In this document: one piece after another, positions 10,107 through 40,802 of the stretch
Layout: every line of letters begins with the position of its first letter
Numbering within the stretch: position 1 is the stretch's first letter
Source: Jaapia argillacea MUCL 33604
Lineage: Eukaryota > Basidiomycota > Agaricomycetes > Jaapiales > Jaapiaceae
Assembly: GCA_000697665.1 (NCBI GenBank)
Contig: KL197710.1
Span: 691,425-755,424 of the forward strand
Length of the DNA: 64,000 nucleotides
Reading direction: 5' to 3'
Made by a program: the position numbers and the translations under genes
Notes under the pieces: generated by a model
What the model was told of the DNA's origin: nothing
Database searches by the model: none
The model's input: only the letters and a program-made list of their open reading frames with translations

Positions 10107-12783
10107 CTATCGACGTTTCGAGCTTCTGCTATCGGCATCTCCGGGAGAACCCCTTCGCTTCCTTTATGCCACAAACCAAATCAGCAATCCAGGAGATAGA
10201 ACAGAAACTGATGCTAAGGAACTCACCGACTTCCACCACTCCTGCTATCATCATCAGGTGTAGCCCTTCCGCTCTCCCTATGAGGCCCACCACCATAATC
10301 CAGCCCATCAACAGCAGGCTGGTTTGCATCCTTATCACGATACTTGTTTTGGTTTCGGGGCCCTGTAGGAACGTTTGGTGGCAGAGGCGAGGCTGGTCGA
10401 ACTGGTAGTGCTTGAGCTGCTATGGCGAAATCTATCTGAACAAACGAGTATTCATAGGAGTAAGGGACAAGAATGTGACGAACCATGACCCCTTCCGCGA
10501 CCAGCAAATCCACCACCTCGTCCACGCATGCCCTGCGGCATACCTCTTCCGCGATACGACACTGGCGTAGCGGTTGCTCGAGGCCCAGGAATGGGTACTT
10601 GTACGGGCACAGGACCAGGAGTACCTGTTCCCTCCATACCAGAATACATGCCTTGTCCCATGACGTTTTGATCCTGATTGGACGAATAGCGTGAATCAAT
10701 CAACACGATTGGGAAGAGGGTGATGAATGAAGCTACCTGCATTCCATACTCCCCTCCCATGCCCATGCCCATCATTCCCTGTCCTTGTCCCGGACCCCCA
10801 CCTCCAGGACCCATACCTTGGCCCATCCCCTGGCCCATGCCTTGGCCCATCCCCTGACCCATCCCCTGGCCCATACCTTGTCCCATACCCTGCCCCATCC
10901 CACCCCCAAAATCACCCATGCCACCCTGCTCCGGCCCACCCCCACCTCCCTGCCCAACCATCCCTCCATCCTGCATCATCCCCCCTCCCTGCATCCCCTG
11001 CATCCCCATTCCTCCCCCCATCCCCATATCACCTTGAACACCCATCCCCATCATCATCCCCGACATATCAGGGTGCATCATAGGGTTCATACCCACTCCC
11101 ACTCCAGGTGGACCCATACCAACGCCTGGAGGTCCCATCATCCCAGCGTTGGGTCCACCACCCGACATCATAGCTGAAGCGCCTGCCATCACCATTGTAC
11201 GAATCTCGGGTGGGAGAGCACTAAGCTGATCTTCTGGCATACCAGCGAAGTTCTGTAAACCATCAAAAAAAAAATCAGCTCACGGTCTATAGCGATATCA
11301 AAAATCAAGGATGCGTACCAACACGCCAGTTTTCATAACGCCAGCCCCCTCACCAATCTCTCTCCTCCTATAACAATACGCCTCCCAACTAATCTCATCA
11401 AACCCATAATTAAACCAATCACTAATATCTGACCCAGGTCTTCTCCAAGGTTTACCCTCCGCAAGCGCCTGGATATCAACTTCAAAGATCGAACGTCCAT
11501 CCAATGTCCCCGGAATAGCGGGGTTGATGGAGGGGTGAGATGCGGGCGCTGAAGCTGGGGGGAGAGTAGAAGGGTCTGGACCGTCTTCTATTCGGGGTTG
11601 GGGTTGAGGGGCGGGGGTTTGGGATTTTGAGTCTGGAGGGGGGAGGGAAGGTTGGTGCTGTTGTTGTGGTTGTTGTTGCGGCTGCTGTTGCGAGCTCGGA
11701 GGAGCAAAACCTTGTTGATGAGGCGGGGCTGAAGGGGGTTGGGGGGGAGGTAGTTGATGTATTGGAGCGCCTCGTTCTCGAGGTGTATACTCCGTCGTCA
11801 ACGAGGGGGCAGGCGCTAGAGTTGTATATATGGTTAGATATGAATTAGGGAGTAGATTGGGTCGAGGGAGAATACTCACGTCCTCTGGCCGGAGGATTAT
11901 ACGACGCACTGGTTGAGCGGACTGGAGCTGGTGGTCGGTTCTGTCTGTGAACGATGGGTCACATTAGTGAGAGTTGGGATTCAGAATTGAGTCTCTGGGG
12001 TTCTCACCTGAGGTCGAGCGTACGACTCTGCGGCTCCATGATAATCTCGATATCCTGCGCAACAAGACGTCAACATCACTCATTCCCGTCATCAACAATG
12101 AAAACGAATACTCACATCGTCGTCGTCGCTCTCCTCTGGCCCTTCTTCTCCTTCACCCTCGCCCTCATCGCCCTCCCCGCTCTCAGCCTCACCTTCTGCA
12201 CCACCAGACCCTTCACGAGAACCTTCACTCGGACCAACACTCGTCGTCACCACTTGCGGTACATCTCCATGGGCATCTCCATTGATATCATCCGGTGGGA
12301 CGCTATTAACCACAGGCGGCTCGTCGTCTTCCAAATCGAAATCAGCCAACAAGTCGTCATCGGCGTCTTGTGATTTATCTCTTGACACTCTAACGAAACA
12401 CAGAACACACCGAAATCATGTTAGAAAGAGATCAACGGTTGACTGACGAGTTGGCTTGGGGTGTGTACTTACGATTCTGCTTAGAGGACCACGCGAAAGG
12501 GGGAGGGACAAAAGTCAACATGCAATTCATATTCGTTGTGGGGATGGAATACAACATGAAAAAAACAAGGAACAATATCTCCCCAAGGTCCAATACGCCC
12601 CCTAACAACCAAGAACCAAAGTGAACTGAACCTCGTCTCACCAGAAATTGCGAACGCCGTCGTTGTTGGAGGGGCCGATTCTGGTTCAGCGGAACCACCG
12701 TAGAGGAAAGCGTCATCGTCGTCGTCCCTACAAAGAGCCCGTTAGATGTGGGCTATACTAACTGCGAATGAAAAAGCTTACAT
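10107..12783 (-). CDS. FIP1: Pre-mRNA 3'-end processing factor FIP1
   Basis: Many-exon gene. The start codon is split: AT at 12783-12782 and G at 12727, giving M-D-D-D-D-D-A-F-L-Y-G-G-S, the usual acidic FIP1 N-terminus. Acidic exon 12389-12092 is followed by DIEIIMEPQSRTLDLR. The Fip1 core is clear in the 11845-11333 exon: GKPWRRPGSDISDWFNYGFDE, then WEAYCYRRREI. Downstream come NFAGMPEDQLSALPPEIRTM, a Gly/Met-rich low-complexity stretch, an RGRG-rich segment and a basic Arg/Ser tail ending at 10107. FIP1 bridges poly(A) polymerase to the cleavage and polyadenylation factor in the nucleus. A 4- or 7-nt microexon is needed to join the second exon to the acidic exon. The polyQ/polyP linker (about 11640-11760) is species-typical. 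Confidence 0.88.
10805..10905 (-). repeat. Tandem 12-nt repeats encoding MGQG units in FIP1
   Basis: On the coding strand a 12-nt unit (ATGGGNCARGGN) is repeated about seven times in a row, giving (MGQG)n, then imperfect MG-rich units out to about 11100. Third positions differ between units, so the array is not a very recent expansion or artefact. Confidence 0.8.
12473..12479 (-). other. Predicted 4- or 7-nt microexon of FIP1 with tandem acceptor
   Basis: The second exon ends in phase 1 at 12642 and the acidic exon starts in phase 2 at 12389, so the join needs 1 mod 3 extra bases. On the minus strand CTCTAAGCAGAATCGTAAGT offers CAGAATC after TAAG (7 nt) or AATC after CAG (4 nt), both followed by a perfect GTAAGT donor. 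Both keep frame (…ISAESVSRDK or …ISESVSRDK). The same frame read through the intron meets TAA immediately upstream, so a longer exon is excluded. Confidence 0.5.
12728..12783 (-). other. Intron splitting the FIP1 start codon
   Basis: Minus strand: exon 1 ends CTCAACAT, followed by GTAAGC; the acceptor TTTGTAG precedes GGACGACGACG. Splicing joins AT to G and creates ATG GAC GAC GAC. In unspliced RNA the same place reads ATG TAA, a start directly followed by a stop. Confidence 0.7.
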
Positions 12784-23797: not shown

Positions 23798-24753
23798 CCA
23801 GTTGGGAGACTGGGAGTGGGTGGTTGAGGTCAAGAACGTTGTCACGTTTTGTGACGTGATCAGCACGTGTAAACTCACACCGAGTCACCGTGACTTCACA
23901 ATCCCCGTACTCCCGATTTCTCGTGATATGTATTCCTCCTGCTCGTTGGTCACTATGTCAAGTGCCCTATCACGATATTGGCCTGGAATAGCATTCGCAC
24001 ACCACTGAATACCGTCTTTTTGTATGTCATGACACCTGGGAATGACACCTGGGATATTTGATCGTCTGGATTGAGGGTGATCTGCTGGTTGGATGACTGG
24101 CCTTCGGGCCCAAGATCACTAAGGAACCTTGGCCTCCGTCTCCATTCACAACATACCCAACGACACCGTGATTTGGGAAAAACCAAGCAAGGCCAAGCAT
24201 TGCTCAATGCTCGTTACCCCATTATTGGAGAAGATAAAGGCCTGTATTGTCTTGGAACAGCACGTCGGCCACGCAATGAACATGGTAAATTCATACCCGG
24301 TTGCCATGTTATGTCAAGAGTGGAGTCGCATTTCTTCTCCAAATTCCTGCTTTGGCATTCATTGTGGCTATATGCCTTGCAGTGCTTCAGCAAACGTGGA
24401 ATGTTTCTTCGGTTTGGGTGATGAGGAAGGCTTGAGCGAGGATCTTGGCTGGTCTTGGATAGTCATTTTTGTGATTCCGCCGAACACAAAGAACCGCAGC
24501 TGTGGCTTCCATGCAACCTCATTCCTTCGCGAATCCATTTCGCGCCACCCGCTTCCTCTGAGCTTCATAAACTCACCTCATGCTCCGCACCTCCTTCCTC
24601 GTCTCGCCCTTCTTCGTACAGCCGTAACGCTGCGCGTTCCCTGTTTTTCTCATTTCTATTTCCCTTTTATTCCGACCCTCTCTCTCTATTCCTCACACAT
24701 TCATTCCGCTGTTCTCAACCATAGACTCTAGAGCATAGACCATACACTAGATC
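23798..24753. other. Divergent intergenic region between EXO5 and the transporter
   Basis: About 950 nt. A 23840-23870 segment is rich in ACGT cores (GTGACGTGATCAGCACGTG). A short direct repeat TGACACCTGGGA occurs at about 24030-24055. Frames at 24129-24731 (+) and 24071-24421 (+) are domain-free. The C/T-rich stretch at 24560-24720 is probably the transporter leader. Confidence 0.4.
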
Positions 24754-32378: not shown

Positions 32379-33290
32379 ATGCGTTCAACACTTGCCCTCG
32401 TCGTTCTCGTCATCTCCGCTCTCTCGAGCTCTGTCGTCTCAGCACCAGCACCCCTCGACGATATTGTCGCCGCTCGCCAGTTTGCGCCGCCCAAACGCAA
32501 GGCTACGCCCACTGTCCCTGACTTCGATCAGCATGCCAAACGAGCCCCTCAGGCGTCGAAGCGAGCGCCCCAGGCATCGAAACGTGCGCCCCAGGCATCG
32601 AAGCGTGCTCCCATGCCCAGCAAGCGAGCTCCAGTTCCTCAGGTCTTGAAGAGGGCTCCTCAGGCATCCAAGAGAGCCGAGAGGAGAGCTCCTCAAGCGT
32701 CGAAGAGAGCTCCCCAGGCGTCGAAGAGGGCTGAGAGGAGAGCTCCTCAGGCGTCGAAGCGAGCCCCTCAAGCGTCGAAGAGGGCTCCCCAGGCATCGAA
32801 GAGGGCTGAGAGGAGGGCTCCCCAAGCTTCCAAGAGAGCGAAACGTGAGGCGATGCCCGAAGCTACGGCCCCTCCCCAGCTTTCCGAGCGTAGCTTCGAC
32901 GAGCAGACCAGCTTTGAGGAGTATGTAGAGCAGAGCGAGATGAACCTTTCGGAGATGTTGTGCCCTGGGGATCAGACTGCTTGTCCCGTATCGAAGCTGC
33001 TTTCCCTTCCCACCAGCCTAGTCGGGTGGAGTGAGATCGAGTATGAATGCTTCGATTTTTCGGCGGACTTGAAAGCCTGCGGAGGATGCGGCAGCATGAA
33101 TTCCATGTTAGTGTTTGCCTTTGCCTCTTACCCACATGTTTCTAATCGTTCACCCCATAGGTATGACTGTACCACCATTGCCGATGCTTCCAGCGTTGCT
33201 TGCGTGCAGGGATCTTGCCAGGTATCGAAGTGCAAACAAGGCTTCGTTCCATCCGGTCTTAACAGCTGCATCCCTGCCAGCCACCGCTAA
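32379..33290 (+). CDS. Secreted KR-repeat protein with PriA-like Cys-rich domain
   Basis: Two exons (32379-33106, 33161-33290) give 285 residues. Residues 1-21 are a classical signal peptide (MRSTLALVVLVISALSSSVV, cut near SA-AP). Residues 53-156 are a repeat array: ten copies of APQAS, one APMPS and one APVPQVL, each bounded by Lys-Arg, with three AERR spacers. KR and RR are Kex2 furin-type cleavage sites, so the array could release short peptides in the Golgi. Residues about 195-285 are a Cys-rich domain (CPGDQTACPVS, then YECFDFSADLKACGGCGSM and DCTTIADASSVACVQGSCQV) like that of PriA and related mushroom secreted proteins. No modifying enzyme lies next to it. Function is inferred, not known. 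Confidence 0.8.
   Translation: MRSTLALVVLVISALSSSVVSAPAPLDDIVAARQFAPPKRKATPTVPDFDQHAKRAPQASKRAPQASKRAPQASKRAPMPSKRAPVPQVLKRAPQASKRAERRAPQASKRAPQASKRAERRAPQASKRAPQASKRAPQASKRAERRAPQASKRAKREAMPEATAPPQLSERSFDEQTSFEEYVEQSEMNLSEMLCPGDQTACPVSKLLSLPTSLVGWSEIEYECFDFSADLKACGGCGSMNSMLVFAFASYPHVSNRSPHRYDCTTIADASSVACVQGSCQVSKCKQGFVPSGLNSCIPASHR
32535..32846 (+). repeat. Array of 21-nt units encoding KRAPQAS
   Basis: The basic unit is 21 nt (Lys-Arg-Ala-Pro-Gln-Ala-Ser). Twelve units are present, three followed by an extra AERR-coding spacer. Codons vary between copies (KR as AAG/AAA + CGA/CGT/AGA/AGG/CGC), so the protein unit is better conserved than the DNA, which points to selection on the peptide. 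Confidence 0.85.
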
Positions 33291-34169: not shown

Positions 34170-35367
34170 ATGCCCAATCAGCTCATCCCTCGAATTGGAG
34201 GTGAGGAGCGCACTGTCTTTGTCGGCTTGTTAGCCAAGTTCATGGGCACGTTGGGGCTGGTGATCGTGAGTATTGATACCATTTCCCTAGAGCAAAAGTT
34301 ACTGACGATTATCCTCCCTTCCAGAGCTTATTCGTTGTCTGGATTGGCTTTTTCGTGCCATTCTGGAGGGCTAAGATGCCTGCATCAAAAGTCAAAGCCC
34401 CTTCCACAGCCCCTTCACCTCCACCTGTTCATAAACGCGCAACCTCTCCCCCCACCATTCTTCCTTCGCCCCCTATACATCGACTTTCCCGGAAACGCTC
34501 CTCTTCCCTTCCGCCTCCACATAACCCAATGACAAAGTCGAAGGCTCGTAGCAAGCGGCGTGTATGCTTCTCAGAAGCAGAACGCGATGCATGGCGCTCA
34601 GAAGGGGAGCAAACTGGCGACGAGCGAGTTTCCCGTCGCCCACTTCAGAGCGTATCAGAATCAGAGCCTTCAACCCCTCGTTCGTCGTTCAGCTCGGCCA
34701 CCTCTAACGAATCCCACGCGACCTCCTGTTGCACATCTTCCGATCCGTTCGCCTCATGTTCTCACATACCCCCCGCAATCTCCCACAGAGATTCATCCAG
34801 AGCTTCGCTGACTATCACACTACGCCTACCGAGATTACGACCTTTGAAGCTGAAGAGGAGAGTAACGTCAGCGGAGACAAGTTCGTCTTCGTCTACCCAT
34901 GCTGTCTATCCCTCAGCCTCCGCCTCTACTTCTTCTGTTGTAATCGCGAAATCAAGGTCCGACCTGAAGCTGAACCAGTTGAAGCCCAACGATTCCGCTG
35001 TCGGGGGTGACATCTATCGGTCAGGCTTCCAGAATCCATTCAAACCGAAGAGATCCGTGACTCTTCCTCCAATCTGTAAGTTCAACCCCTGCAATCCAAA
35101 TATTCCTTTTTTGCTGACTTTTCCGTTTCAGCCACGCGCACAAGCAGTAGCAAAGAGAATGTCTCGTCTACGAATCCATATCCAACACCACCATTACCTC
35201 GAGCGTTACCCTCTGGGCCCTCAGGATCACTTCATCGCAAATCAAAATCCCTCGTCGCATATATAAATTCAAAAACATCAAGAAGCTCCCCACCACCGAC
35301 CGCTGCGTCTCCGCCTCGCACGCAACCGTACGGTCCGCCGTACAACGTTCCCATGCCGACTCCCTGA
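34170..35367 (+). CDS. Predicted single-pass membrane protein with Ser/Pro-rich basic tail
   Basis: Three exons (34170-34265, 34325-35075, 35132-35367) total 1083 nt, or 360 residues in one frame. Splicing of exons 1 and 2 creates one hydrophobic helix: LLAKFMGTLGLVI joined to SLFVVWIGFFVPFW. The remainder is disordered, rich in Ser, Pro, Lys and Arg, with RSKRRVCFSEAERDAWRSEG near residue 100 and a Pro-rich end (PTPPLPRALPSGPSGS, then PPRTQPYGPPYNVPMPTP). No enzyme motif is seen. It may be a membrane-anchored scaffold with a phosphorylated cytosolic tail, but this is a guess from composition. The start could also be at 34107. Confidence 0.55.
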
Positions 35368-38700: not shown

Positions 38701-40802
38701 GCTGCGTTGTCTTGCCGCTACCTGCCATATGTCGTTAGTATATTCGAACGGTCGGCAGATGACGTTTCTTACCGGTTTCACCAACGACAACAACAACCCG
38801 GCTCTTCTCCAACATCGCCAGAAACTCGTCTTTCGACGCAAAGGCAGGAAGCTTCTTTCTCGTGGTGTACAACTCTAAGAATTTATCCATTTTGCAAACC
38901 TGCTCGAATTCTTCTCGTACTTGAGCATCGCTTCGTCGATCCACCCGTTGCGCTCGGCGCTTCCGCCCATTGCCCTTCGCACCTGATCCTGGAGTAGGTC
39001 CATCCAAAAGTTCCGGAGGTAATTCAGGTTCGACCTTCCGGCGGGGCAGGAGGTACTGAAGTACAGCCGACATGTCCGGAGGTCCGTTATCCCCAATCTG
39101 GGCCCACTCTTCCTCGAGTAGTTGCATAGCAGCAAGGAAAAACTCTTCGCCAGGCTGGACTAGCTCATCGATTCTTATCGCTCGGAGGAGTTTGGAGAGA
39201 AGGTGAAGCCTGACATAAGCTGGTATGGTATTGGAGGTGACGTACATCGGCGGAGGGTACGTTTGCGGAGAATATGAGCCTCCGCGAGGTATCAGAATGT
39301 GAAGCTTTAGGGGGGCGGTGAAAGGCGTAATGAGAATCTCAGTCGAGTCCACGTAAGATGCGCCGATGGCTTCGAGTTCTTCATCGTCGACGAGTTGTAC
39401 GACGTCCCATTCCGCAGGCATAACCCACTCCTCCCCGAGGAGCTTCTGGTTCAGCATAGTTATCAAGCTACCCCAGTCCTCCGATTCTGCTTGGGCAGCG
39501 CAGTCCTTCACGGAGTGAATCGGCCAACCAGCTTCTTTGACGGCCTTGTCCTCGAGCCATCGTTTTTTCAGAGCTTCAGAACCACCATGAGCAGATGTGA
39601 TGAACGAAGCAGACGAGTTGTTGGAGGGCAGGAACCGCTGAGGTAGATCACATTCGGGAACGTGGAGAATGAGATACTCGATAGAGGCTTCCAGCGCTGA
39701 GAGGGTTTGGAGGAGGGTAGATGCTAGTTGGGAAGGCGTCGAGAGGAAAGAAACCGCGGCCCGAGATTGGTGAGACGTGAATCCGAGGTGACCGAGTTGT
39801 TGAAGGACAATTATGGCATCCTCCGGTGAAATGATACTTGGGGATCCATCCCCAGCCTCTGGATGTAGAGCAATTGCCTTCGGAAAAAATGCAAGTCTGA
39901 ATGAAATGCATTTCGTCAATGTGCTCGACTGACCTTCTTCACGGACTCTTCAACGAGATCACGTAGGGAGCTTGCCATCTTGACTTCAGGAGCATTTGCA
40001 AACATTGGCGATACTGGCGATACCCTCGTTCCCCGACGTGTTTCCTCGGCTGCCTGTGTCCTCTCCTCTTCTTTCTTCGTAGCTTTTACCTGCCTCTCCT
40101 CCACCGCCTTACGCGCCGCAAATGGATCGGCATCATACATCCATCTCTGGTGCTCGGGGACACTCTTGTGTTCCGTGGCCAGTTCAACCCAGTAATCGCG
40201 GGGACCAGGCGGCAGTTGCATGTTCAGTTGCATGCCGTTGCAAAACTAACACCGGCAATTTGTCGGATTCAACGCATTGAGACACGAATGCAACTGAACG
40301 AACGCGATATAATGCATAGGTCGCACCCCAATGACGGGCTTCCAACGGAGTTGGCATGAGTTTCGGAGGATGAGGCTCGAGACGCACATGGTCGATCTCA
40401 GATGTCTTTTTATTGAGTCGACCGAGAGTCACTACAAATGAGTATCCATCCCTTTGCCTTCGCTACGGCACAATTGAGTAGGAGAAGATGACCGACATTC
40501 CCTACTCACAGTATCAACATGTGGCTTTTCCCACCCATTCTTCTGACACCTGGTGGTGAGGTTAGCTTCAAACGCGTGGACAGAAACGTTGCCACAGGCT
40601 TTGAACTTGGAAAACCAGCGGCGAGAGAGGATGGAAGCGATATATCGTACCTTTCAGACAATAGACTTAAAGGATATTTGTAACCGGGGGGGAATAGAGC
40701 CTTAGGACCGTCTGTAGGCACTGGAGCTGTCTCTGAAACTTTGGAAGATTTCGCGGAGTTTCCAGCATTTCCAGACTTGACAATTCCTCTCTTGGGCGGC
40801 AT
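35780..40802 (-). CDS. DEAH/RHA-type RNA helicase, DHX29/YLR419W-like
   Basis: Large gene with many short introns. N-terminal: MPPKRGIVKSGNAGNSAKSS, then LSER-CQKNGWEKPHVDT and TLGRLNKKTSEID, as in the RNA-binding region of DHX29. A UBA-like segment (EDAIIVLQQLGHLGFTSHQS) and an RWD-like domain (SYSPQTYPPPMYVTSNTIPA, YVRLHLLSKLL) follow. Helicase motifs: [11 protein letters not shown], Ia TQPRRISALSVAAR, II DEVH (not DEAH), III SAT in [32 protein letters not shown]. The OB-fold end has VPLYALLLFGGPVTVNHIAG and LTGDGLSSGNL before the stop at 35780. DHX29 helps 40S subunits scan structured leaders. An exon of only 21 nt (38701-38721) encodes the P-loop core. It is head to head with PRP22. Confidence 0.85.

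Follow-up and report, generated by a model that had tools for sequence, protein, structure and literature searches.

A putative Kex2/Ste13-processed pro-protein joining a repeat array to a CPL1-like domain in Jaapia argillacea

Within a 64,000-nucleotide stretch of the Jaapia argillacea MUCL 33604 genome (contig KL197710.1, positions 691,425 to 755,424 of the forward strand; hereafter the window, with positions counted from its first letter), an open reading frame (ORF) at 32379-33290 (+) encodes a protein in which an array of short units bounded by Lys-Arg (KR) precedes a Cys-rich domain. Judging from its sequence, this gene probably specifies a secreted PriA/CPL1-family pro-protein that is processed by Kex2- and Ste13-type enzymes and in which a cleavable linker has grown into an array. 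Once the signal peptide is removed, a Golgi kexin would cut after each KR or RR, leaving basic residues for a Kex1-type carboxypeptidase to strip and X-Pro and X-Ala dipeptides for a dipeptidyl aminopeptidase of the Ste13 type to trim. Two kinds of product are expected: about twelve short peptides, APQAS or, should the newly exposed Gln cyclise, QAS; and the 10-Cys CPL1-like domain, released with its N-terminus near QLSERS. Either may act at the cell surface or as a developmental signal. The array probably began as a Kex2-cleavable linker, of which most paralogues keep a simpler form, and grew in tandem. If this is true, one gene may yield many small peptides together with a trimmed surface or signalling protein.

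The gene model and the repeat array

The features of the gene, all on the + strand, are as follows.

32379..32444 (+): predicted signal peptide, residues 1-22, with putative cleavage after VSA; hydropathy peak, small residues at -3/-1
32445..32543 (+): N-terminal pro-region with two KR sites, residues 23-55
32544..32846 (+): repeat array, residues 56-156; 10 APQASKR, 1 APMPSKR, 1 APVPQVLKR, 3 AERR and AKR
32841..32846 (+): last KR, residues 155-156; predicted Kex2 cut freeing the C-terminal fragment
32847..32876 (+): five successive X-[A/P] dipeptides, EA-MP-EA-TA-PP, residues 157-166; Ste13-type spacer
32877..32960 (+): acidic stretch, spacer to the first Cys, residues 167-194
32961..33287 (+): 10-Cys C-terminal domain, residues 195-285, with the intron inside it; Pfam CPL1-like at residues 222-275
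33107-33160 (+): 54-nt intron, GT..AG, in frame and without a stop, called by eye

An earlier note, made from the sequence alone, had described 32379-33290 as a single ORF; the frame is present as described, but it reads through the 54-nt intron, and the spliced protein is 285 aa long. With the intron removed, the CPL1-like domain, otherwise split in two, is matched by Pfam as one. Since the intron is in frame and free of stops, its retention would insert 18 aa in the domain rather than truncate it. The hydropathy maximum of the protein lies at its N-terminus (12-aa Kyte-Doolittle mean of 2.87 at residue 4, and no more than 1.25 past residue 40), and the V-S-A that ends the putative signal peptide has fitting residues at -3 and -1.

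The array spans 101 aa with a net charge of +29. Its twelve KR-bounded units, ten of them identical, and its three AERR spacers occupy residues 56-153 (window 32544-32837), in agreement with the count in the earlier note, and an AKR after them closes the array. KR or RR separates the repeats throughout, and cutting after KR/RR in silico gives two leading pieces, the 12 units, three AERR, AKR and a 129-aa C-terminal piece. The mature protein contains 18 [KR]R pairs, compared with a mean of 3.9 and a maximum of 12 in 20,000 shuffles. Among the 538 stop-free segments of at least 60 aa in the six frames of the window, the array segment ranks first for [KR]R, with 17 in a 110-aa stretch; behind it come segments with 13, from a different frame of the array DNA, and with 12 and 10. 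The dibasic excess of the array is not due to chance. Tandem Repeats Finder (TRF) detects the array in the DNA, with higher-order periods of 54 and 75 nt. Pfam matches of the array to Alanine_zipper (E 0.0016, below its cut-off) and Mitofilin (E 0.12) were rejected as low-complexity. A search of the genome (43.7 Mb in 95 contigs) found no second APQAS array, the sole match besides the array itself being a weak one on contig C33 (E 1.66).

The lead to the folded domain, its paralogues and the candidate processing enzymes

The C-terminal domain, which the earlier note had recognised as PriA-like and Cys-rich, matches Pfam CPL1-like (PF21671, the PriA/Cfl1 family) at residues 222-275 with E 4.3e-17 and 62.4 bits against a cut-off of 27.4, and a profile search of the genome places a CPL1-like domain at the same locus. 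The genome holds at least six CPL1-like loci including this gene, all above the cut-off, and the 10 Cys that make up the conserved pattern are invariant in the protein and five hand-spliced paralogues. A PDB search with the C-terminal fragment found nothing related in sequence at E<=1.

In four of the five paralogues (L003, L006, L007 and L009), a KR lies 2-9 residues ahead of the first Cys of the domain. The chance of finding KR within 14 residues in at least four of five is 2.4e-4, a figure for a span picked after seeing the sequences, and L006 and L009 are ~11 kb apart on contig C41 and so are not independent in this count. L007 (G000:C10:104273-104440, -) carries KRNVPSGGPTKRTPPSGAPPKR ahead of the domain, two imperfect KR-bounded units that are a possible proto-array. 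On the simplest account, one family member would have expanded its cleavable linker into an array. L009 also matches ephrin-receptor-like Cys repeats in Pfam, L006 appears similar by eye, and the C-terminus of L009 is a Lys-rich tail with PAKR motifs.

Directly after the last KR, the five successive X-[A/P] dipeptides form a run that was equalled in 4 of 200,000 shuffles of residues 157-285; residues 157-195 together have a net charge of -9. Newly recognised here are this alpha-factor-style X-[A/P] spacer between the last KR and a folded domain, the make-up of the units from such dipeptides, and the KR linkers of the paralogues; the earlier note mentions neither the spacer and the linkers nor the intron. 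Within the array, 12/12 cores likewise open with two X-[A/P] dipeptides (AP, then QA, MP or VP), leaving S or QVL, and both substituted units (APMPS and APVPQVL) retain A or P at position 4. Taken together, the array and the lead to the domain read as a Kex2/Ste13 substrate in the style of the alpha-factor leader.

The genome encodes candidate enzymes for this processing. A kexin locus (L010, around G000:C5:1484684-1484863) has S8 and P domains and, read by eye, a probable zymogen site of its own, RVKR|APPS, which shares the KR|AP context (P1'-P2') with the array units. A DPPIV/Ste13-type locus (L011) carries a DPPIV_N domain. One P-domain match was found in the genome, where more may have been missed; Coprinopsis cinerea has three kex2 genes (PMC9769878). 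The Kex2/Kex1/Ste13 layout proposed in the earlier note is supported by the sequence, and a kexin and a DPPIV/Ste13-type protein are encoded in the genome. Kex2 processing is likely, and release of the folded domain is the predicted step best supported by the family context.

Several observations weigh against this interpretation. One of the five paralogues (L008) lacks a dibasic site before the domain, and the last KR of the protein itself is 38 residues ahead of the first Cys, farther than in the paralogues. The Ste13-type run is missing from the paralogues, in four of which 0 or 1 X-[A/P] dipeptide follows each of seven dibasic sites. Within the array, the three AERR and the AKR do not fit a Ste13 site, and the A/P pattern of the units is weak when taken alone, as permutations of their own letters place A or P at positions 2 and 4 in 30% of cases for APQAS and APMPS and in 14% for APVPQVL. 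As for the enzymes, the stretch of L010 holding the probable zymogen site has no Pfam match, and L011 is recognised by its DPPIV_N domain and not by its catalytic part.

Unit conservation and the fate of the array

The earlier note had proposed that the unit is conserved in protein more than in codons, and the comparison bears this out. All ten APQASKR units are distinct in DNA and differ solely by synonymous changes, with means of 0.53, 0 and 3.53 differences per pair at codon positions 1, 2 and 3; the position-1 differences are all between AGR and CGN codons for Arg. Over the five core codons of these ten units, the proportions of synonymous (pS) and nonsynonymous (pN) differences are 0.61 and 0, and with APMPS added (11 units of equal length, the longer APVPQVL left out) they are 0.62 and 0.093. 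Overlapping coding frames on the array DNA were considered and rejected, as the divergence falls at third positions of the 32379-33290 frame. Tandem arrays do homogenise, and the 54- and 75-nt periods would fit recent duplication or gene conversion as the cause of unit identity without any selection. The ten units nevertheless differ at about half of their third positions, and gene conversion would be expected to equalise silent sites too, so the high silent-site divergence argues against either cause. At least 11 changes have occurred among the ten units, all synonymous, with a probability of 2.8e-7 if changes fall randomly over the unit and 5.6e-6 if transitions only are considered, although both values overstate the case in that the units were selected for identity. 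Duplication or conversion alone is therefore an improbable explanation.

One alternative, compatible with cutting and possible though the less probable course, is that the array is a disposable pro-region: it would ensure that the N-terminus is taken off and that the domain stays latent as far as the Golgi, and its peptides would be functionless and broken down to dipeptides and amino acids. The X-P-X-[A/P] start of every core makes the units largely Ste13-trimmable, and the four paralogues with KR before the domain manage with no long array, L007 having two units. In C. cinerea, moreover, knockouts of six genes for Kex2-processed repeat proteins (KEPs) had no apparent phenotype, unlike knockouts of kex genes (PMC9769878). 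If KR and the A or P at positions 2 and 4 were all that counted, however, residues A1, Q3 and S5 would be expected to drift, yet they are kept in 12/12, 10/12 and 11/12 units despite the silent divergence among the ten. A second alternative, to which we give little credence, is that the array is never cut and stays in the mature protein, where its +29 charge would let it serve as a tether to wall polysaccharide or bind the acidic stretch, in the manner of the repeat regions of adhesins. The strongly basic array does adjoin the -9 stretch, and the family member Cfl1 occurs both at the wall and in released form (PMC9786196). Against this, KR/RR sites of canonical form stand in a protein that has a putative signal peptide, the genome encodes a kexin, and the Ste13-type run exactly after the last KR would have no role.

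If the precursor is processed by Kex2- and Ste13-type enzymes, as we favour, the small peptides may or may not have a function, with residue-level conservation arguing for it and Ste13 trimmability against it. As every core opens with two X-[A/P] dipeptides, a Ste13-type enzyme could also shorten QAS unless its Gln cyclises, and APQAS may be trimmed off instead of being an end product. A more speculative proposal, which we consider unlikely, is that one precursor releases, at a constant ratio and through the same Kex2/Ste13 step, a dozen pyroGlu-Ala-Ser tripeptides and a folded signalling domain of the CPL1/SIGC kind; in that case, the fruiting defects of mushroom kex mutants would trace in part to Kex2-cut linkers of the PriA family.

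Relation to known systems and genomic neighbourhood

KEPs are an established class, with Ste13-type members in basidiomycetes (PMC6339444, PMC7329392, PMC9769878). The protein resembles these in its putative signal peptide, its units separated by KR/RR and X-P or X-A after the predicted cut, but differs from them in terminating in a folded 10-Cys domain. One KEP survey, as described in its text, dropped proteins with a separated piece of more than 100 aa or with all repeats shorter than 8 aa (PMC7329392), whereas another counted a class of 3-8 aa (PMC6339444). With a 129-aa last piece and a core of 5 aa (7 with KR), the protein falls outside the former filter and would probably be left out by it, and it exemplifies a class likely to be missed by one or more of the published KEP filters. 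Many KEP peptides of C. cinerea are reported to have a cyclised Gln, and in Pleurotus, peptidomics pointed to Ste13-type trimming of a KEP, which the authors regard as a first indication of it for a basidiomycete (PMC9769878).

The PriA/Cpl1 family is described as including PriA of Lentinula edodes and Cfl1, Dha1 and Cpl1 of Cryptococcus neoformans, with a SIGC domain, and Cfl1 is reported to be secreted with a surface or matrix role. The released form of Cfl1 acts as a signal (PMC9786196). The protein resembles this family in its predicted secretion and its C-terminal CPL1-like PF21671 domain, and differs in its array, no KEP array appearing in the family descriptions consulted. In C. cinerea, loss of kex1, kex2b or kex2c inhibits fruiting, and the authors favour processed proteins over KEP peptides as the substrates involved; KEP peptides still occur when a single kex gene is knocked out, and KEPs of C. 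cinerea have been produced in P. pastoris (PMC9769878). A PriA-family member with Kex2/Ste13-type sites ahead of its conserved domain, and with KR linkers in most of its paralogues, would link Cfl1 signalling with the kex fruiting defects in a directly testable way.

The earlier note had called the joining of such an array to a folded Cys domain unusual. Our search of open-licence literature found no paper that joins a KEP array to a CPL1-like domain, although the supplementary lists of KEP surveys may contain such proteins; for folded domains in general there are precedents. In Hum3 of Ustilago maydis, repeats that contain putative Kex2 sites likewise precede a Cys-rich folded domain, a hydrophobin, but these repeats are amphipathic and 31-36 aa long, the domain is a different one, and a Ste13 signature goes unmentioned in the text consulted (PMC4617103). 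C. cinerea 365456 similarly has a Kex2-released peptide, detected by peptidomics, ahead of a folded secreted domain, although that domain is GH128 and one detected core peptide, pyro-QSEPKPTN, is named in the text consulted (PMC9769878). The yeast alpha-factor precursor, a mating pheromone precursor cut by enzymes of these types, shares the order of KR, X-A/X-P dipeptides and cargo (PMC9769878), but in the protein described here the cargo is a folded domain.

Between 20000 and 46000 in the window there are 11 ORFs of at least 190 aa, of which we scanned eight, omitting the target, its minus-strand shadow (32439-33017) and 24123-24731. Six of the eight have Pfam matches (Exo5/UIM, F-box-like, OB_NTP_bind twice, S1 and helicase) and two, 34277-35263 and 38738-39949, have none; no recognisable biosynthetic gene was seen among the eight, these two included. 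UstYa (DUF3328) had no match in the genome, though control genomes gave none either, and none among the eight ORFs, and the array units lack Tyr. A dikaritin-type cyclisation cluster for a ribosomally synthesised and post-translationally modified peptide was weakly rejected in view of the missing UstYa match, the controls being silent too. Pattern searches gave 13 stretches in viral_contigs and 92 in genome_contigs, none of them a relative, in viral and prokaryote collections that are uninformative on fungi. Hydrophobin gave 56 exon-level matches in the genome, which together with the genome's size would be in keeping with a mushroom-type Agaricomycete. Elsewhere in the window, 10455-11900 (-) contains a run of QGMG repeats, with a 12-nt tandem array at 10810-10901; by eye, its frames resemble a Fip1-type polyadenylation factor.
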